From IMG/VR virus record IMGVR_UViG_3300032092_000023, positions 1-64,000 of that record: DNA of 64,000 nucleotides, one strand, 5' to 3'. A model generated the notes under the pieces. The model saw nothing but the letters and a program-made list of their open reading frames with translations, did no database searches and had not been told where the DNA came from. Positions 25,195 to 61,284 of the stretch are shown here, piece by piece (the stretch's first letter is position 1; each line of letters starts with the position of its first letter). The position numbers and the translations under genes were made by a program. The stretch is from a virus.

Positions 25195-25761
25195 TTAATG
25201 AAAATTTTCTCCGCCAAACCAAGCAACTAGGATTTTCTTAGTACCGCTGCTGACTTTTTCCACCGCGTTAACAACATATCCAGGGAAAGCTGTTATTGTT
25301 CCCAATGATCTTGATGTAGTCAGTAGTTCTCCGATATTAATGACCAGCTGTCCTCCGCGGTATTCATCGCTAGAAGATAGGTTGAGAATCATTACCAGCT
25401 TTCTACCAGAAAAGGGTATTCCTGTTGCAATATCACAATGCCAGTCCAAGTAATCTTCGGTAGAGAACTCATAGTACCACATATGTTCCACCATGTCAAG
25501 CGGATCAAACTTATACATTTCCTCATTAATCTTTAGAGCAAGATCATACATTTTTCCATAGATCCACGCTGTTGTATCGTCATAATGTACAAAAGAACCC
25601 TGAAACTTTCCATGTTTCTCAGGCTCAAATGTTTGAAGTGATAAGTTAGATGTAATCTCTAAAATCTTGCGGCTGTCTTCGGTATCAAAGCCTTCTTCAA
25701 TACAAGAAGGAGTTATGGGAGCTACAAGGTCAACGGTTTTGTGGTTTCCTATGTCTATCAT
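25195..25761 (-). CDS. 2-oxoglutarate/Fe(II) oxygenase-like protein with altered metal site
   Basis: 188 aa with a double-stranded beta-helix dioxygenase pattern: YEFSTEDYLDWHCDIATG holds the HxD motif (His and Asp at about residues 110-112), then LVMILNLSSSDEYRGGQLVI and TITAFPGYVVNAVEKVSSGTKKILVAWFGG. In active members the last segment has the second metal His in place of Asn (FPxxxxHxVxxVxxGxRxxLxxW) and an Arg that binds 2-oxoglutarate; here they are Asn and Lys. It may be a binding-only or altered enzyme. Phage relatives are often thought to modify DNA or proteins. Confidence 0.7.
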   Translation of the reverse strand: MIDIGNHKTVDLVAPITPSCIEEGFDTEDSRKILEITSNLSLQTFEPEKHGKFQGSFVHYDDTTAWIYGKMYDLALKINEEMYKFDPLDMVEHMWYYEFSTEDYLDWHCDIATGIPFSGRKLVMILNLSSSDEYRGGQLVINIGELLTTSRSLGTITAFPGYVVNAVEKVSSGTKKILVAWFGGENFH

Positions 25762-26078: not shown

Positions 26079-27707
26079 TTAAAATCCTCCCATTCCTCCG
26101 TCTGACTGCTGTTGAATCTGCTGTGCAAGTTTCATGTCAGCTAAATCTTTCTCTGCCTGCTCAGCCTTCATTCTTTCATTTGCCGCAATGTCATCTTGTG
26201 AAAGCTTGAGGTATTTCTCTATAACAAATCGTGGTGTAAAGTAAGGAACATCAACGTCCATGCCGGTAGCGTCCTTTTTCTTGTCCATGATTTGCATCAT
26301 ATTGGAAGCAAAGTCAAGTCGCTTACCTAACATATCCATTTGCTTAAGCTCTTCAAATATGTTATCTTTATTGTAAGTAATTGCCAAAGTAGATTTAAAC
26401 AATTCATCTTCTGCAAGTTCTGGGTAAATAAGGCCCATTTGAATAAATAGTGGCTTGAGAACAATTTCTTGATAGATTGAGCGTAGTCGAGTAATAAACT
26501 TGAAGAAACGAATTTCTTCTCGGTCAATACCGTCGGCTGATATTGAATACTGGCCGCCGCCGCCACCTCCCATACCTTTATCAAATCTTGAACCAGGTAT
26601 CTTAGAATCCTCAATTAATTTATCTTTAAAGTATTGTAGCTGTGCAGGATCGCTTAGGTCAAATCCTTCACCTCCCATAACAGATATGTCGGGTGACTCA
26701 CCGTTCTTAGATGGAAACAAATAGTTCTTGTAAAATTGCATTGAAGGAGAGCCGTTAATTGAAAGCTCACCTGAATCTTGGTTAAGATTAACGTCTTCTT
26801 TATAAATGTTAATCATTTCCGCAAGAGCCTCTTTAGCTTTTTGCGGAGACTTGGTTCCTATAGGTACCACCATCTTCATGCGGTAACTGGCGTTCATGAT
26901 GTTCCAGATGACCCGGCTGTTTTCCATAATGCGCAATAGATTGAATGAACGTACCATTCTCTCCACATACGAAACACGGCCTGTGAAGTTACCTTTAGCG
27001 TATGATATGTAAATTACTTGTGAATCAAGGAGAACTCGTTTCATCGCAGGAATATCTTCATACTGTACCCAGATTTTTTTATATGTTCCGTCACTTGCCT
27101 TTTCTACACCAGGGCGTAAAGAAATTGGGTCCAACTCTTTAAAACCTACAATGTTTTTTCCATCTGGGTCAAATATGATTTCAAACGAAATGAAACCGTC
27201 AATTAAGAGCTGACGAAAATACGCCCAAGCATCGTGCCCACCGGAAAAATGAAAGTGTGCATAGATTTTCTTAAACTGTTGATTAAGCTCGGATATGACT
27301 TCTTTTTGATTGTCCGGAGAAAGCACCTCTCTTACTTTACCGATGTCAACATTACAAAAGTAATTGGAGTCATCATAAACAATTGCTTCATCGGCAATGG
27401 TATCTACAACAAATTCTATCTCAGGGTTCATTGCAAATTTTCTAAGATAGTCGCGTCTTGCTTTATAGTCTTTATCAAAAAACGCAATAAACTTTTTCTG
27501 ACCTACATCAGAAAGAGCTAATGAATATAAGAATTCTTCAGGTAAATATCCTTGGTTACCAAATTCTGCTTCTGTAACACCAATCGCTCTTGACTGCTTT
27601 ACGACCATATCTTCGTATCGCATACCAAGATTGGCTAAATTCTTTAGACTTTTTGAAATCTGTCCAAACACGGGATTCACCCCAATTCTATCAATAAAAC
27701 CTGCCAT
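26079..27707 (-). CDS. Portal protein (gp20-like)
   Basis: 542 aa, near T4 gp20 (524). Typical elements are the N-terminal helical region, YLRKFAMNPEIEFVVDTIADEAI with the following cysteine-containing strand, GFKELDPISLRPG, the long central helical part with VSYVERMVRSFNLLRIMENSRVIW in pieces, and the C-terminal Met/Gln-rich tail. Portal rings occupy one capsid vertex, nucleate head assembly and dock terminase and neck. A late box lies 15 nt upstream, and a terminator follows. Confidence 0.85.
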   Translation of the reverse strand: MAGFIDRIGVNPVFGQISKSLKNLANLGMRYEDMVVKQSRAIGVTEAEFGNQGYLPEEFLYSLALSDVGQKKFIAFFDKDYKARRDYLRKFAMNPEIEFVVDTIADEAIVYDDSNYFCNVDIGKVREVLSPDNQKEVISELNQQFKKIYAHFHFSGGHDAWAYFRQLLIDGFISFEIIFDPDGKNIVGFKELDPISLRPGVEKASDGTYKKIWVQYEDIPAMKRVLLDSQVIYISYAKGNFTGRVSYVERMVRSFNLLRIMENSRVIWNIMNASYRMKMVVPIGTKSPQKAKEALAEMINIYKEDVNLNQDSGELSINGSPSMQFYKNYLFPSKNGESPDISVMGGEGFDLSDPAQLQYFKDKLIEDSKIPGSRFDKGMGGGGGGQYSISADGIDREEIRFFKFITRLRSIYQEIVLKPLFIQMGLIYPELAEDELFKSTLAITYNKDNIFEELKQMDMLGKRLDFASNMMQIMDKKKDATGMDVDVPYFTPRFVIEKYLKLSQDDIAANERMKAEQAEKDLADMKLAQQIQQQSDGGMGGF

Positions 27708-27731: not shown

Positions 27732-28451
27732 TTACTTTCCAGGACGGATGTATTTCTTCTTATCTTTTGCTGTCTTAACTTTGTCAGGTACTTTTTTGTT
27801 TAACAGCCCCTTTACTTGAATGTACTCTTTCCAAACAGCTGCAGGAGGTTTTCCATTAAATTCCTTTGGCATGAAATACGGTATCATTTCCCAATCTTCC
27901 AATTCAATAATAACCGGCTGCGTGATTCGGGGGATTATGTAATTTCGATATGCCCATTGATAACCAATCTTTCCTTGCTGATTGAATATCTTTATTGTAA
28001 AATACCAATCGGTTAAGAACTTCCATGCACCTCTTAAACGTCCAATTGCTCCTTCATTTACCAGTTCCTCCGCATCTTTGAGATCATTCTTATAGATATC
28101 ATAAAATATCTGCAATGTTTGTACTCTTTGTAGTTCGGGTAAAAAATTAAGGTTCAGCCCTTGAACTATCATATTACCTTCTTTAGAGATAAACTGAGAA
28201 TGAACAAGAACCATAGGTCGCTTATCGTAAAAGTCCAATACATCTTTATAGAGAGGGTCGTATTTCCAAGTGTAAATTCTGCCAGGAAGAAAAAACTTAA
28301 GTTGCTTTACACTACCTCGTTCAAAAGTTTCTAGAAACCCGGTATCTGTGTACGGTTTTTTAAAATACTTGTCGTTAAAAAACTGATAGCCGTTCTTGCG
28401 AAGTTGATCCTTTCTATCGGCTTCGCGGTATGCTTCAAGAGGTGCTTTCAT
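27732..28451 (-). CDS. Conserved-looking phage protein, probably virion-associated
   Basis: 239 aa. The segment GRIYTWKYDPLYKDVLDFYDKRPMVLV (taken in parts) followed by GLNLNFLPELQRVQ is a pattern I associate with hypothetical structural proteins of T4-like phages (YD-x(7)-LPYYDxxPxVL ... GLNxHYLP). The C-terminus is Lys-rich. Its start overlaps the stop of the gp4-like gene by 4 nt (ATGA) and the portal gene follows, so a head or neck role is likely, but I cannot name the T4 counterpart. Confidence 0.45.
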   Translation of the reverse strand: MKAPLEAYREADRKDQLRKNGYQFFNDKYFKKPYTDTGFLETFERGSVKQLKFFLPGRIYTWKYDPLYKDVLDFYDKRPMVLVHSQFISKEGNMIVQGLNLNFLPELQRVQTLQIFYDIYKNDLKDAEELVNEGAIGRLRGAWKFLTDWYFTIKIFNQQGKIGYQWAYRNYIIPRITQPVIIELEDWEMIPYFMPKEFNGKPPAAVWKEYIQVKGLLNKKVPDKVKTAKDKKKYIRPGK

Positions 28452-28969
28452 CTGCTAAACAAAAAATCTTCGGTAACTATAACAAACTTATAACCTCTTT
28501 CAGCAGCAAAAAGTTTTGCAGCGGAAAACTTAGCACGATTGACTAGCCAAGTCTTAAGAGCATAGTTATAGTTCTTGATTTTTTTGGTGGTTATTTTCTG
28601 TCCTTCAAGAAGAGGCTTTGTTAAAGATGCCTCCGGTTTTACTTCAGCCAAATAATCAACCTCGTTCTCTCCTTCTTTAACCCGCAAATAAAAGTCTACA
28701 TAATAAGTATGTGTCTTGTTACCTGCTGGGTTGTCGAGAGGACTAACATATTTTATACCAACGGGCTCCGATGACCATCGGATAACATTTTCATTGGTAT
28801 CGCAATACACGCAAAATCGATGCTCCCAAGAAGAACGATATATGATTTGCGACGTATCACCAATGTACTTTTCCGTGTTAACTAATTTGTAATATCCTTG
28901 ACGAAACCCGCTTTTGTGACTGGGTTTATTTGACTTAATATCACTCACAATGATTGCTTTATTATACAT
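28448..28969 (-). CDS. Head completion protein/nuclease (gp4-like)
   Basis: 173 aa, close to T4 gp4 (150). Characteristic segments: FRQGYYKLVNTEKYIGDTSQ, then IIYRSSWEHRFCVYCDTNENVI, with VRWSSEPVGIKYVSPLDN-like continuation, THTYYVDFYL and DYLAEVKPEAS. The Asp in YVDF and the Glu-x-Lys in EVKP form a PD-(D/E)xK-like nuclease site. gp4 acts on the packaged head before tail joining. The 5' end overlaps a duplicated initiation region (28949-29012). Confidence 0.85.
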   Translation of the reverse strand: MYNKAIIVSDIKSNKPSHKSGFRQGYYKLVNTEKYIGDTSQIIYRSSWEHRFCVYCDTNENVIRWSSEPVGIKYVSPLDNPAGNKTHTYYVDFYLRVKEGENEVDYLAEVKPEASLTKPLLEGQKITTKKIKNYNYALKTWLVNRAKFSAAKLFAAERGYKFVIVTEDFLFSR

Positions 28970-29012
28970 TAATGTCTTTTTTCATCATAATGATTACTTT
29001 ATTATACATTAA
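28949..29012 (-). repeat. Duplicated translation-initiation segment, two 24-bp copies
   Basis: Copies at 28949-28972 and 28989-29012, 40 bp apart, differ at one base. Each holds TTAATG followed by TATAATAAAG; the upstream copy overlaps the gp55 stop and opens a 15-codon frame, the downstream copy starts the gp4-like gene. The first copy looks like a relic or a coupling leader. Confidence 0.8.
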
Positions 29013-29353
29013 ATACTGTAAAGGTTTTCGTTACTTAAAGAGATTTTTGATGTTGCACTTAACGGATGAAGCTTACGCCATCCTTTAGCAAATCCGTGTT
29101 TTATAATCTGCGTGTAATACGCAAAAGGATAATTTGATTTTTCTGGGTTATAACTTCTCCAGTATTTAATAACATCCATTAAAGCAAAAGCAATGCAATC
29201 TTTGCGATCCTCTTCATCTTTATACTTTAGTTTTTTTGATGTTTCTTTTGCCATAAGCATGAACATTTCCACTGCTCGTGGAGTAAGCTCGTCGTTTTCT
29301 TTTGAGATAAGAATCTCTTTCTTAAGCTCTTCTGGGTTTATGTAATTTGCCAT
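29009..29353 (-). CDS. Late sigma factor (gp55-like)
   Basis: 114 aa. Residues about 27-95 align by eye with T4 gp55: the helix AVEMFMLMAKETSKKLKY (T4: AIMLIAEGLSKRFNFSGY), DRKDCIAFALMDVIKYWRSYNPEKSNYPFAYYTQIIKHGF (T4: [39 protein letters not shown]) in the region-2-like part, given here in pieces below 20 residues: DRKDCIAFALMDVIKYWRS, NYPFAYYTQIIKHGF. T4 gp55 (185 aa) recognises TATAAATA late promoters together with gp33 and the gp45 clamp. This one is shorter; the C-terminal clamp-binding part may be lost or very short (LYSI at the end). Confidence 0.7.
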   Translation of the reverse strand: MANYINPEELKKEILISKENDELTPRAVEMFMLMAKETSKKLKYKDEEDRKDCIAFALMDVIKYWRSYNPEKSNYPFAYYTQIIKHGFAKGWRKLHPLSATSKISLSNENLYSI

Positions 29354-29361
29354 AGTTAGTA

Positions 29362-29981
29362 TTAGTTAGTGTTTGCAGAAGATGATACTTCCGATTCGTC
29401 ATCAAGACTCTTAACATACGATTGAAGTTCTGCCATGCAAACATTTAATGAATCAAATGAAAGCTTGCTGTTTTCTTCAACTGTCTTTTTTAATTCTGCA
29501 AGCTCTCCTATGATTCCATTAACGGAATCAGTTAAGCCTGCAAGAAATCCTGTGAGTTCATCGGGTTTGTTTTCCCCTGTTTTGGGGTTAGCAGCGATAT
29601 CATTCTCTGAATTATATACACCTACTTCATTTAGTTCTAGGTGCTTCTTTTTTACCCGTGACTTTCTTGTGCCATCAATAATAATTTCGATATCGTCATT
29701 ATCGCCTTTTGATGTATAATCAACTGCCTTGATTAAAACGGGGAAACCTGCTTCTTTACCTGGATAAGTTTTACCTAAAGATCCTTTAACAAAACCATAG
29801 GCCTCGCGAATTCCTACCGTTGCTCCGTCTCCCTGAGATTGTATCTCAAGGTCGTTTCCTGGTTTGGATTCTGAGGCCTTCTTGGTTACTTTAATGTCTG
29901 CTGGTTTGACGGTTTCTGTTGTTCCGTCGTCAAACTTAATTACAATAGTTTTTCCTGCTCCGCTTAAGCTAGTGACTACTG
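29362..29981 (-). CDS. C-terminal extension read only after -1 frameshifting
   Basis: An open frame of 206 codons ending at a TAA at 29362-29364, with no ATG, GTG or TTG near its beginning. The first in-frame ATG is within its last 30 codons. Its start AVVTSLSGAGKTIVIKFDDG completes the domain begun at the end of the 528-aa frame (GDEVEYLKKK), giving a barrel-like GDEVxYLxxxxVVTSLxGxGxxIVIKFDDGTxExVxxxDI pattern. The remainder is Lys/Glu-rich with a C-terminal coiled coil. It is expressed either by -1 frameshift at 29982-29991 or the reading frame is broken there by an indel. Confidence 0.75.
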
Positions 29982-31562
29982 CTTTTTTTTTAAGTATTCA
30001 ACTTCGTCACCTGCATTTACACCTAATCCTTCAGTCACATGAGTGAAAGCATTTATGGCATTCTTTGCATTGTAGTATTCTTCTCTAACAGAGTCAACCT
30101 CTTCTTGAATTGCGGCAATAAGTTCTTTTACTTCAGAAGATTCGCGAACATCTACATCTGTAATGGATTCAAGAATATTCTTTCTTTCTTCTAAGTAATT
30201 GATTGCGTCCATACATTCAGTAGCCTTTTCTTGAAGATCAACAATTGTTTTATCTTCTTTAGATAGAAGCTCTTTAAACGTTAATCCTAAATCATAGCTA
30301 GCAAACTCCATAACAAGATTTCTACTTTGCGATGCATTGCAATTAGGATAGAATCGTGTTTCATTCATTAGGTTGTCAGCAGTGAAGATAAAAGTGTTTT
30401 CGTTTAACTTAAAAACATCAGCACGACGATGAGGCATTCCTTTTGGATAAATTGACTTCGTAAAGTCAAGCTCAAAGATAGCATCCCAATGTTCAACCAA
30501 TTGGCCGACTGCGCTAATTACTTCTCTTTCCTCCATACGGAAAACACCGGAATTAAGATACACACGGTGGAATTCATCTTTAGTTACTTTCTTGTTATTA
30601 ACAAAGATAGCAAGACCTTCGGATTCTTCGACAAGTTCCACCTTTTTATCACGAGAGAAAACCTTAATGGAGTTTTCTAAAATCTCTACATTATTTTGCG
30701 ATAAGAAAGATGAGATAAATGTAAAGTAAGAAGGGAGTTTGGCATTTTCATCTTCGGTTAACGGTCGCATTTTGTTGCCGTTCTTTACGTAGGCTACACC
30801 GTTTACCGCAAAAATTTCGTCGTTCTCTGAAATGATTACCGGTGAGTATGATTTCTTGACAATTACGTCAGCACCAGTTGCTTTAAGTTGAAAAGAATTT
30901 TCAGATTCTATTACAACATTATGTAAATTGCGAATTGCTTTGTCATGCAAGTATTTACCAAGCGATTCGATTAGAGCAACACGATTTGTTGGTGTTCTGT
31001 GATTAAGATATTCATTGATATGTTTTTCAATCCCTGTCATTAAGAAAGCAGAGCTAGAATTGTTTTTTGCTTCGTGAACAGCTTTATAAATCTTGATGTC
31101 TTCAGAATATTTCTTGCTGTTTACGGTTAATTCATCAATAGCTTGTTTTACCGTAGGATCCCACGAAAACGGTGCCAAAGATTCAAGTACGTGATCAACG
31201 ATCAGCCACTCAGGAAGGCTTTCTACTTTGGAAAGTTTTTCCAACATGTATAATGCAGTAGGATGTTTTGCCAGCTCAGATTCTCTAATGCTCTTAAGCG
31301 ATTTCTTTACACCCAAATTGTGCATTTCGGTAATACGTGTGATTTCCGTAACGAAATTGACTACATCGCTATCATTGATGTTTTCGAGATCGCTAATCAG
31401 TCCTTCTGAGATTTTCATCTCAATTTGCTCAACAGCTTCCGGTGAAATGTTGAAGATAGAGTATTCGGTGCACTTCTTGAGAGCCTCTGTACAAACGTTT
31501 TTAGCTTCTTCTGAAGAAGTAGAGGAGATTAGCCCTTCAATTCTTTTTCTCAAATTTGACAT
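29976..31562 (-). CDS. Hypothetical virion-type protein, 528 aa; 733 aa when frameshifted
   Basis: The zero-frame product is 528 aa, helical in the first 170 residues, with a beta-rich middle (about 215-350) and a helical segment (about 435-510). It has no enzymatic motif I recognise. The last residues GDEVEYLKKKQ are cut off within an apparent beta-barrel domain whose second half is encoded in the -1 frame downstream. The 19-nt window in which both frames are open contains A AAA AAG. A late box lies 23 nt upstream. Neighbours are gp55-like and gp15-like genes, so a structural or assembly role is inferred. Confidence 0.6.
   Translation of the reverse strand: MSNLRKRIEGLISSTSSEEAKNVCTEALKKCTEYSIFNISPEAVEQIEMKISEGLISDLENINDSDVVNFVTEITRITEMHNLGVKKSLKSIRESELAKHPTALYMLEKLSKVESLPEWLIVDHVLESLAPFSWDPTVKQAIDELTVNSKKYSEDIKIYKAVHEAKNNSSSAFLMTGIEKHINEYLNHRTPTNRVALIESLGKYLHDKAIRNLHNVVIESENSFQLKATGADVIVKKSYSPVIISENDEIFAVNGVAYVKNGNKMRPLTEDENAKLPSYFTFISSFLSQNNVEILENSIKVFSRDKKVELVEESEGLAIFVNNKKVTKDEFHRVYLNSGVFRMEEREVISAVGQLVEHWDAIFELDFTKSIYPKGMPHRRADVFKLNENTFIFTADNLMNETRFYPNCNASQSRNLVMEFASYDLGLTFKELLSKEDKTIVDLQEKATECMDAINYLEERKNILESITDVDVRESSEVKELIAAIQEEVDSVREEYYNAKNAINAFTHVTEGLGVNAGDEVEYLKKKQ
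29982..29991 (-). promoter_or_regulatory. -1 ribosomal frameshift site (A AAA AAG in an A9G run)
   Basis: Zero-frame codons TTA AAA AAA AAG CAG TAG contain the heptamer A AAA AAG, the E. coli dnaX slippery site. Slipping back one base continues as GCA GTA GTC ACT into a 206-codon frame. The -1 frame has a TGA four codons upstream of the run and the zero frame stops two codons after it, so the shift must happen here. Confidence 0.75.
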
Positions 31563-39410: not shown

Positions 39411-40589
39411 TTAAAAAAGTTGAGTTCTAACTATTAGTTCAGGCGGAAGAGGAGGAAGGCCTGTTGCAGCAATAAAACGATTAATAGGATCAATGATACA
39501 TTTTGCAAATTGCGTATCATAATCAACAGGCGGCGCAAACTCAGATGGAAAGTTTCCTGGAAGGTATGCAAAAACATTCTGCCCACCTTCTTCTTGTCTT
39601 GCATAATAGTACCTTACCTTATCACCGCTTTTAATTAATTGATATTTTGACTTCCACTTTGAATTGTTTAAGGTATAATTATAGTAACCTGCTGCGCGAA
39701 CATGCATAGGGCAGTGTTCATTAATCACAAACTTTTTTCTATCTTCGCCTATACCTTTTTCATAATCGCTAATACTTGATGACATTGAAACGTTTTCCAC
39801 ATTGTCAAGCATAAACGATTCTTTCTCTTTCTTTAAGAGGTCAGCAAACTTTCGCATGTTAAGCTTACCTCTTTCTTGGAAGATTATTTTTAGGAGTTCC
39901 ATCAGTTTCTTTCGAGCAAATGCAGGAGTGGAAGACTGTACAATTTCCACTCCTTTTGCATCAATTTTTTTCTGCGGCTCGTAATATGTTCCTCCACCAG
40001 CACCTGATTTCCAGGCTTTATCCATCACATACTTTTTCTTTTTCAAAAAGATAGCACTGTGCGATATGGTTTCCATCTCCAGATCTTGAATGTTTTCTGT
40101 CCCAGCTTGGTTTGCCATTGCTGTAAAGTTTTTATCCAAGTAATCCTTTAAGCGATGTTCATATATCAAATGGATAAGTTTTCTCGGATCTTCTGTCCAG
40201 TCGGTTCCTTTGACGACGTCTTGGAAAGATACATAGCAAGAATCGGTATCTCCGTAAACCGCAACCTCATCTTTGATTTTAGTGGCTTTGGTTATTCCAA
40301 TTTTTTCGTGAAGCTGTGTGTCACGATACCAAAAATCTGTGAAGTAGCGATTAATGATCTTGCTTACATACTTAATCATTTCTTGCCCTTGCAAGGTAAT
40401 GGCTTCTGCAACACGAACATTGTAACCTACGAAATACGGAGACGCAGTAGCACCGTAGACCGAGTTGATGAAAATTTTGATAGCCTGCTCCTCATTCTTT
40501 TTCAGATTCATCAACCAGGTCAGTCGATTGATCTCCGCAACGATTTCTTCTTTGCTTGCTGTATTTGGATCAATCTTACAGTACTTCAT
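39411..40589 (-). CDS. DNA polymerase family B, C-terminal half (gp43B-like)
   Basis: 392 aa. It begins within the fingers (MKYCKIDPNTASKEEIV ... LKKNEEQAIKIFINSVYGA, motif B, Kx(6)YG), continues with motif C VYGDTDSCYVSF at about residues 116-127, the KKKKYVMDKAW motif near 190, and the thumb. The exonuclease and motif A are missing here and are encoded at 59902-61284. The gene is coupled to the clamp gene by TAATG, as clamp and polymerase work together. Both halves keep their catalytic residues, so they probably assemble into one enzyme. Confidence 0.9.
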   Translation of the reverse strand: MKYCKIDPNTASKEEIVAEINRLTWLMNLKKNEEQAIKIFINSVYGATASPYFVGYNVRVAEAITLQGQEMIKYVSKIINRYFTDFWYRDTQLHEKIGITKATKIKDEVAVYGDTDSCYVSFQDVVKGTDWTEDPRKLIHLIYEHRLKDYLDKNFTAMANQAGTENIQDLEMETISHSAIFLKKKKYVMDKAWKSGAGGGTYYEPQKKIDAKGVEIVQSSTPAFARKKLMELLKIIFQERGKLNMRKFADLLKKEKESFMLDNVENVSMSSSISDYEKGIGEDRKKFVINEHCPMHVRAAGYYNYTLNNSKWKSKYQLIKSGDKVRYYYARQEEGGQNVFAYLPGNFPSEFAPPVDYDTQFAKCIIDPINRFIAATGLPPLPPELIVRTQLF

Positions 40590-59893: not shown

Positions 59894-59902
59894 GTATATA
59901 TT
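59894..59902 (-). promoter_or_regulatory. Late promoter box (GAATATATAC) close to the start codon
   Basis: Minus-strand AATATATACAATCCAAAATG; box, 8 nt, ATG at 59885. Overlaps the stop region of the polymerase N-half. Confidence 0.55.
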
Positions 59903-61284
59903 CATAAAGTGTTCATTTTCGCCTTCAATTGTTCAATTTCGTCCTCAATTTCTATATAAATTTTCTTGGATGCCTTTCTTTTTCCGTAATACTCAGAAAG
60001 AATGGTTCGGAAAACACTGTCTTCGTCTTTCTTAAATACTGCGCCCGACGAACAATAAATTTCGGTTTCAGGGTTTACCTGTGCCTGGTCTTCCACATTT
60101 CTTAAATAAGATTCAGGTGATATGTTCCACTGGCGCATGATTGACGGATATAGCGAAGCAAAGTCAAAAGATACCACCCACTCATAGAGGCCTGTCTTAG
60201 GTTCTACAACAAACGCTCCTTCATAAGATTCGCGCTTTTTCTTAGCAGCGTCTGACTTAGGGAATACTTTCCCTCTTCTTTGAAACTCTCTTGCCATCGC
60301 AGCTTCTGCCATCCAAATAGGGCTATATGCTCGGTTAGCTTCCACTTTGGTAATGTTTCCTAATGTTAGGAAAGTTTGCAATGTGTTTAGCTTGCGGTCA
60401 ATCATTTCGACAAGTTTGGTATCGACTGCATTGTAAAAGATGTATGATTCAAAATCGTTTTGATACAAGTCTTGGAGCGTTCCGTTGTACTTTACTTTAG
60501 GAATTCCTAAAGCAGCGCTAGCAACAAAGTCAAGCGTATTGTTTTCTTTAATGTCAATGACACGATCCCATTTCTTATAGACATCAAGATAATCGACTAC
60601 CATGCGGTGCATAGGTAATTGTGCATCTCCTACTATACGATTAGATATTGAGCAAGCGCTAGGATCAATGTTGAGACGTTTACATCGATTCATTAGGTAA
60701 GCCCAGTCATATCCGACAAAATTCCACCCAGTTAGCAAAGGCATCTTAAGAACCGCTTTATAGAAAAAGCTAACCATCATATCATACTCACTCTGAAAGG
60801 GAAGATACGTAAATTCCACTTCTTCTTTTAAGTGTTCTTCTATTCTTTTCTTGATGCTGGCAATTTGCTTTGCCGTCAGCGGGCGGGTTGCCATTGAAAA
60901 GATGCGGTTACCATTGCAAAAGGTTATTGCGGTAACAGGAAATTTTGCAGTGTCAGGCTTTGGCCATTCATCGCCAACCTCAACCTCAATATCGAGAAAA
61001 AACTTTTTGGGTGCATGTGTTGAATAAATGTTTCGTGTCCTTTCTTCAGGCAGTGACCCAAGAAATTCCTCAATTCTCCACTTACTTAAGTATCGAGCCC
61101 GTCTTTTTCTAACGGGCTTGCCATCCCATGATTGAGCGCCAGGATGCGGTTTTTCTCCTAATGCACAGTATTCCCACTCAAACATTTGGTCAGCAGGAAT
61201 ATCAATCTTATCAATTGCAATTTCACCGTTTTCATCAAAGTAAGATATCTTGAGCGATGAGTCGTGTTGTTCTATGTCTATCAT
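59902..61284 (-). CDS. DNA polymerase family B, N-terminal half (gp43A-like)
   Basis: 460 aa. The 3'-5' exonuclease motifs are present: FFLDIEVEV (Exo I, DIE), GWNFVGYDWAYLMNR (Exo II) and FYNAVDTKLVEMID (Exo III), followed by polymerase motif A VVSFDFASLYPSIMRQW at about residues 378-394. It ends in the first fingers helix (SEYYGKRKASKKIYIEIEDE and a few more residues). Motifs B and C are encoded 19 kb away at 39411-40589. A bona fide end is supported by a promoter directly after the stop. The dUTPase gene lies 3 nt upstream. Confidence 0.9.
   Translation of the reverse strand: MIDIEQHDSSLKISYFDENGEIAIDKIDIPADQMFEWEYCALGEKPHPGAQSWDGKPVRKRRARYLSKWRIEEFLGSLPEERTRNIYSTHAPKKFFLDIEVEVGDEWPKPDTAKFPVTAITFCNGNRIFSMATRPLTAKQIASIKKRIEEHLKEEVEFTYLPFQSEYDMMVSFFYKAVLKMPLLTGWNFVGYDWAYLMNRCKRLNIDPSACSISNRIVGDAQLPMHRMVVDYLDVYKKWDRVIDIKENNTLDFVASAALGIPKVKYNGTLQDLYQNDFESYIFYNAVDTKLVEMIDRKLNTLQTFLTLGNITKVEANRAYSPIWMAEAAMAREFQRRGKVFPKSDAAKKKRESYEGAFVVEPKTGLYEWVVSFDFASLYPSIMRQWNISPESYLRNVEDQAQVNPETEIYCSSGAVFKKDEDSVFRTILSEYYGKRKASKKIYIEIEDEIEQLKAKMNTL

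Follow-up and report, generated by a model that had tools for sequence, protein, structure and literature searches.

A conserved nine-adenine slippage site predicted to give two products of one gene in a group of huge phages

The dnaX gene of Thermus thermophilus carries a run of nine adenines on its sense strand, the effect of which depends on the run length; stop codons of the other frames lie nearby, and two products with different C-termini are formed (PMC1088944, PMC5009743). Slippage in vivo at nine A or T, as well as in Thermus dnaX itself, is established (PMC5009743), and conservation of the length of a 9A run among homologues is considered a sign of purposeful transcriptional slippage (Baranov 2005, PMC1088944). 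The zero frame of Thermus dnaX gives the long product and slippage truncates it, whereas Shigella mxiE has a short zero frame that is extended by the shift. In Escherichia coli dnaX the heptamer A_AAA_AAG stands in phase, with a stop nearby (PMC3711429 and general knowledge). Phages T3, A2, A118, A500 and PSA extend coat or other proteins by frameshifting, so that one gene also produces a minor long form carrying a C-terminal beta domain of the Ig type (PMC5009743). In tail assembly chaperones (lambda gpG/gpGT) a conserved -1 fusion is found within the phage assembly region. The shift in E. coli dnaX is stimulated by a Shine-Dalgarno-like (SD-like) element and by a hairpin located 5-9 nt downstream.

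The gene considered here is encoded on the minus strand of a 71.5-kb virus record, of which a stretch of 64,000 nucleotides, further referred to as the window, was analysed (Table 1). A preliminary description had joined a 528-aa frame to a 206-codon -1 frame lacking a start codon, and this arrangement is confirmed. The zero frame ends with GAA TAC TTA AAA AAA AAG CAG TAG; the slippage site contains two heptamers, A_AAA_AAA and A_AAA_AAG, and is the sole A9/T9 of the record. The -1 frame is closed by a stop 5 codons ahead of the site, and its first ATG, GTG or TTG is codon 182, hence it has no usable start; the third frame shuts 3 codons on. Reading in -1 at A_AAA_AAG gives EYLKKK-AVVTSLSGAGKTIVIKFDDG and a fused product of 527 + 206 = 733 aa, the junction-spanning peptide of which covers EYLKKKAVVTSLSGAGK. 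Runs of 8 or 11 A, earlier named as the lengths that would betray an assembly error, were miscounted: they lead to the third frame and would not fuse the frames, for which the run must gain one A or lose two. Lak phages use TAG as a glutamine codon. Such a reassignment was rejected for the window gene, as its zero frame soon meets further, non-TAG stops and the homologous continuation lies in -1.

With Thermus dnaX the gene shares the sense-strand A9, the nearby stops and the predicted two C-terminal forms, but its zero frame is the short one, as in mxiE, and the protein is unrelated. The phase of the heptamer and the close stop are those of E. coli dnaX; however, the run there has six A's rather than nine, the shift shortens the product instead of lengthening it, and the window site has no SD-like element or hairpin. 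The gain of a beta domain at the C-terminus of a minor long form recalls the Ig-extension phages, although here the extension is SH3-like with a helical hairpin, not Ig-like, and the site is an A9; the zero-frame product has no match to a capsid family. The likeness to gpG/gpGT is confined to a conserved -1 fusion in an assembly region, given that the size and the slippery site differ and that the gene is not located between the tail tube and tape-measure genes.

Table 1. Features of the window and of related contigs (contig names precede contig positions)
Feature	Position	Strand	Details
Zero-frame ORF (short product)	29976..31562	-	528 aa including the last Q
A9 slippage site AAAAAAAAAG, codons NNA AAA AAA AAG	29982..29991	-	A9 proper 29991-29983
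Zero-frame stop TAG	29976..29978	-	One codon past the site
-1 extension, 206 codons and stop	29362..29982	-	Open 29982-29365, stop 29364-29362
Late sigma factor, T4 gp55-like	29009..29353	-	PHROG 234, E 1.4e-12
Head closure protein, gp4-like	28448..28969	-	PHROG 218, E 6.5e-44
DNA end protector, gp2-like	27732..28451	-	PHROG 429, E 1.4e-14
Portal protein	26079..27707	-	PHROG 213, E 3.6e-63
Second A9 in the extension	L011 4547; L045 8108; L047 8109; L015/L017/L018 8087; L016 191; L019 7703; L020 5288; L022/L023 8088		
Clade B hairpin in the tail			L049, L052, L055-L057, L059, L061, L062, L071, L072, L075, L077

We are almost certain that this is a conserved two-product gene relying on slippage of one kind or the other, by RNA polymerase or by the ribosome. 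The 733-aa and 528-aa products proposed earlier are strongly supported by the conservation of the run, the stop and the extension. Of the level at which the shift occurs we are less sure, and lean towards the reading in which it is made mainly by RNA polymerase at A9, while both levels may act. The majority of transcripts would be read to the zero-frame stop, giving the 528-aa protein. As the polymerase copies A9, some mRNAs would gain an extra A, and the fraction shifted to -1 would give the 733-aa protein with the SH3-like domain(s) and the helical hairpin added. The protein might help to assemble the head or neck, or act in the virion, of a T4-like huge-phage group, the extension perhaps being needed in part of the copies only.

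A search with the 528-aa protein found no close relatives, only distant kin in Lak megaphages and the 462-kb LR756500. Relatives were fetched by the portal gene, four genes downstream of the slippage gene, and both halves were run by tblastn against the resulting 78 viral loci. In 32 loci, the shortest fragments among which contain just part of the N half, the N half occupies one frame and the extension lies in -1, the two meeting at the same base. An additional contig with the same site (site A), L113, brings the number of other contigs to 33, and these are further referred to as clade A. The junction is AAA AAA AAG in 33/33 of them; the clade comprises about 22 distinct sequences, several loci being near-duplicates, and since the sequences of this clade and of clade B, described below, are related, site counts overstate the independent observations. 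The heptamer A_AAA_AAG, which stands in the phase of the zero frame, is invariant throughout clade A. The zero-frame stop is situated 0-2 codons past the run and is TAA, TAG or TGA depending on the lineage. Full-length N proteins share 38-58% identity with that of the window, and the contigs originate from many different metagenomes. The run is A10 in L011, L045 and L047, with the extension still exactly in -1.

Homopolymer runs are classically prone to indel errors and the window comes from an IMG/VR-type virus record, and the frame break might be suspected to stem from faulty sequencing or assembly, or to mark a gene that was broken only recently. However, the frame relation recurs unchanged in the 33 other contigs, which come from many samples and show the protein identity given above, and likewise in the 21 contigs of clade B, and the extension is under purifying selection. 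Conservation across relatives from many metagenomes excludes an assembly error, and the probability of this explanation as a whole is vanishingly small. Long A runs are mutable, and changes of the run length in the population could switch the extension on and off by phase variation. This is very improbable: no clade A relative has an in-frame run length, and in the three A10 contigs the extension remains in -1, so that it is the out-of-frame state itself that is kept.

A second A9 is present within the -1 extension of several lineages, before the helical tail (Table 1). A further -1 shift there would stop translation in 0-3 codons and leave a tail-less form. In one lineage the N-terminal ~210 residues are tandemly duplicated (L015/L017/L018 5515-7905, L019 5134-7521).

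The extension could also be translated separately, by reinitiation past the zero-frame stop. Such an explanation would suit L034, L035, L036 and L040, where the junction is AAGTGA and a -1 GTG overlaps the zero-frame TGA, and L042, where the possible tail is a separate ORF with its ATG overlapping the stop. Against it, most clade A relatives have no start codon in the first 12-100 codons of the -1 frame, the earliest one of the window lies far inside the extension, and the first SH3-like strand appears to precede the junction; reinitiation in place of slippage is highly unlikely. In the sub-clade of the four AAGTGA contigs, coupled reinitiation could add a free extension.

The extension is under purifying selection as judged by pairwise dN/dS (omega) of 0.05-0.25, values similar to those of the N half in these pairs. 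There are 54 invariant-residue columns in the N half, and a single codon is used in only four of them, three of which hold the lysines encoded by the run; in the two remaining invariant Lys columns AAA and AAG are freely exchanged (13:8 each). The first AAA codon is preceded by an A in 21/21 clade A sequences, although the codon ending in this A is TTA, CTA, GGA or GAA. The proximity of the zero-frame stop to the run is non-random in both clades (0/5000 synonymous-codon redraws, p < 2e-4). Third-frame stops are found 1-9 codons from the run, and their proximity is modestly non-random in clade A (p about 0.01, assuming independence) and not significant in clade B.

Clade B consists of 21 contigs with A9 at a different place in the homologous protein (L048-L052, L055-L057, L059-L062, L069, L071, L072, L075, L077, L080, L082, L119 and L126). 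Its zero frame traverses the SH3-like stretch and then a region of Ala-Pro-Gly-rich repeats, and ends with (ACA/TCA/GCA) AAA AAA AAG TAA; in L059, L060 and L080 it ends with AAA AAA AAC TAA, C and not G following the run. The base before the first AAA is A here too (ACA, TCA, GCA, TTA). The -1 tail of about 80 codons (53 codons in L080, where homology is not clear) closes the gene ahead of the late sigma gene, same as in the window. When this tail was compared with the end of the window extension, hhalign gave E 1.3e-4 and a probability of 53% in a single comparison, and the tails of the two clades are probably homologous. Repeats of the NLAEAPG/HNLA type are observed in L071 (6065-8326) and other clade B proteins; their sequence is similar to that of the sites cut by the T4 prohead protease (L/I-x-E before A/G), and multiple cleavage is possible.

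No slippage site was found in L041, L003, L076, L079, L084-L087 and Lak. L042 and L046 have a single long frame bearing SH3-like repeats, and the match of their tails in the tail comparison is not significant or marginal. In the more distant relatives, Lak megaphages and LR756500, the protein is encoded in one frame or lacks the tail. On the maximum-likelihood tree clade A forms one branch (98/98), clade B is placed elsewhere, and unshifted relatives lie between and around them. The simplest reading of this tree is that the slippage site arose twice, the alternative being loss and shift of the site.

In programmed -1 ribosomal frameshifting at A_AAA_AAG (with A_AAA_AAA), of the kind known from E. 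coli dnaX, both products would be made from one mRNA. The heptamer is in phase and the zero-frame stop is near in all relatives, and A_AAA_AAC, seen in L059, L060 and L080, is likewise established as a heptamer of insertion sequences (PMC4066793). In clade B a 13-bp hairpin (GAGTTCGTT..AACGAACTC) with three pairs changed on both sides is located ~28 nt past the run, and single folds give z of about -4 to -7. This strong covarying structure also counts against the polymerase level, though its distance is far outside the usual spacing of 5-9 nt. The clade B hairpin, followed by a T run in several contigs, has the look either of an intrinsic terminator or of a stimulator that promotes frameshifting from a distance. 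At site A no consensus pairs were obtained over 20 sequences, single folds are mostly near the shuffled energy (up to z -2.5), and no purine-rich, SD-like element ~10 nt upstream is conserved in the upstream 30 nt inspected by eye. The absence of a hairpin and of an SD-like stimulator in clade A favours polymerase slippage.

The length of the run points in the same direction, as it is conserved including the wobble base outside the heptamer, whereas the ribosome would require no more than A_AAA_AAG: all three A's beyond the heptamer are invariant, and A9, or A10 in the three contigs named above, is found throughout clades A and B, in agreement with the published sign of transcriptional slippage. 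The tolerance of C in place of G directly past the run, in L059, L060 and L080, likewise suits the polymerase. The third-frame stops of clade A, closer to the run than random, would fit it too, while the modest size of this effect and its absence in clade B count against it. On the other hand, A9 holds two overlapping ribosomal heptamers, which would equally explain its length. Polymerase slippage is also favoured by the in-frame heptamer being tolerated elsewhere while A9 is almost absent. In-frame A_AAA_AAG is not specially avoided in these genomes (107 vs 126 expected), whereas 33 of the 34 cases of NNA_AAA_AAA_AAN in 592 ORFs are in the slippage gene (the 33 include L066, read from the list). 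A/T runs of at least 9 number 63 in 1.14 Mb of loci vs 92-177 expected, and 55 of the 63 fall in the slippage gene (counted from the listing, with near-duplicate loci kept in); some whole records have a few further A9 runs. Avoidance of A9 in bacterial genes has mutational reasons too.

Ribosomal frameshifting is therefore retained as a realistic but less probable reading; of the earlier label "dnaX-type", the -1 shift at the site stands, and the ribosomal level, lacking the dnaX stimulators, is the less likely of the two. If RNA polymerase makes the shift, it could tentatively be proposed that late-gene polymerase slippage is productive in a tailed phage and evolved twice, and that the second A9 of some lineages leads to a third, tail-less product.

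No family match for the protein was found by sequence in PHROGs, Pfam and PDB, and literature searches gave no description of the slippage site; nor was a description of the protein family found in the libraries searched. The AlphaFold model of the N part (mean pLDDT 82) is helical, then beta, and then a long coiled coil. Foldseek/VIA comparison of this part with PDB yielded coiled-coil or single-domain matches only (Z 8.1 at most), while its fold relatives in BFVD (E 1.7e-25 to 1.7e-14) are uncharacterised phage proteins, one of them from Tenacibaculum phage PTm1. The N-part fold is also matched by BFVD entry A0A1B4XWW4, a 936-aa protein of Tenacibaculum phage pT24 that carries the name "DNA ligase 1" and is possibly misannotated. 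A profile search of PTm1, PAU and MA9V-2 gave no sequence match to the slippage protein. MA9V2_197, which adjoins a sigma gene in a similar-looking layout, was considered as a candidate and missed by the profile built in this analysis. The extension contains an SH3-like domain (residues 60-120 of the model, Z about 6-7 vs SH3 domains) and a C-terminal helical hairpin, with a conserved linker GVYNSE..NPKTGENKPD; in the model a further, first SH3-like domain is probably split by the junction.

The slippage gene is flanked by a gene for a 517-aa protein on one side and by the late sigma, gp4, gp2 and portal genes on the other. The neighbourhood in LR756500 is similar as judged from ORF size and position. 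From this gene order the protein could plausibly serve in the virion or in the assembly of head and neck, the position in the module being compatible with a structural or assembly protein. Judged by the portal, the nearest cultured phages are those of Tenacibaculum, Sphingomonas and Chryseobacterium, and for lake phages that look related, hosts among the Bacteroidetes have been predicted (PMC9723584). Elsewhere in the window, a T4-type family B DNA polymerase is apparently split into two genes 19 kb apart, at 39411-40589 (PHROG 262 positions 496-838) and 59902-61284 (positions 102-496), and a 2OG-Fe(II) oxygenase-like gene (25195-25761) is located between the portal and clamp-loader genes.

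The gene thus adds a family not described before to the conserved head/neck-type region of huge phages, Lak among them, and the C-terminus of this protein would be supplied by slippage via two routes that are apparently independent. The extension is broken up or missed by standard gene callers. The two clades together with the single-frame relatives form a natural experiment on the way in which a phage sets the ratio between two forms of a protein and on the reasons for it, and the pair of clades may also serve to test whether that ratio is set by the ribosome or by RNA polymerase.
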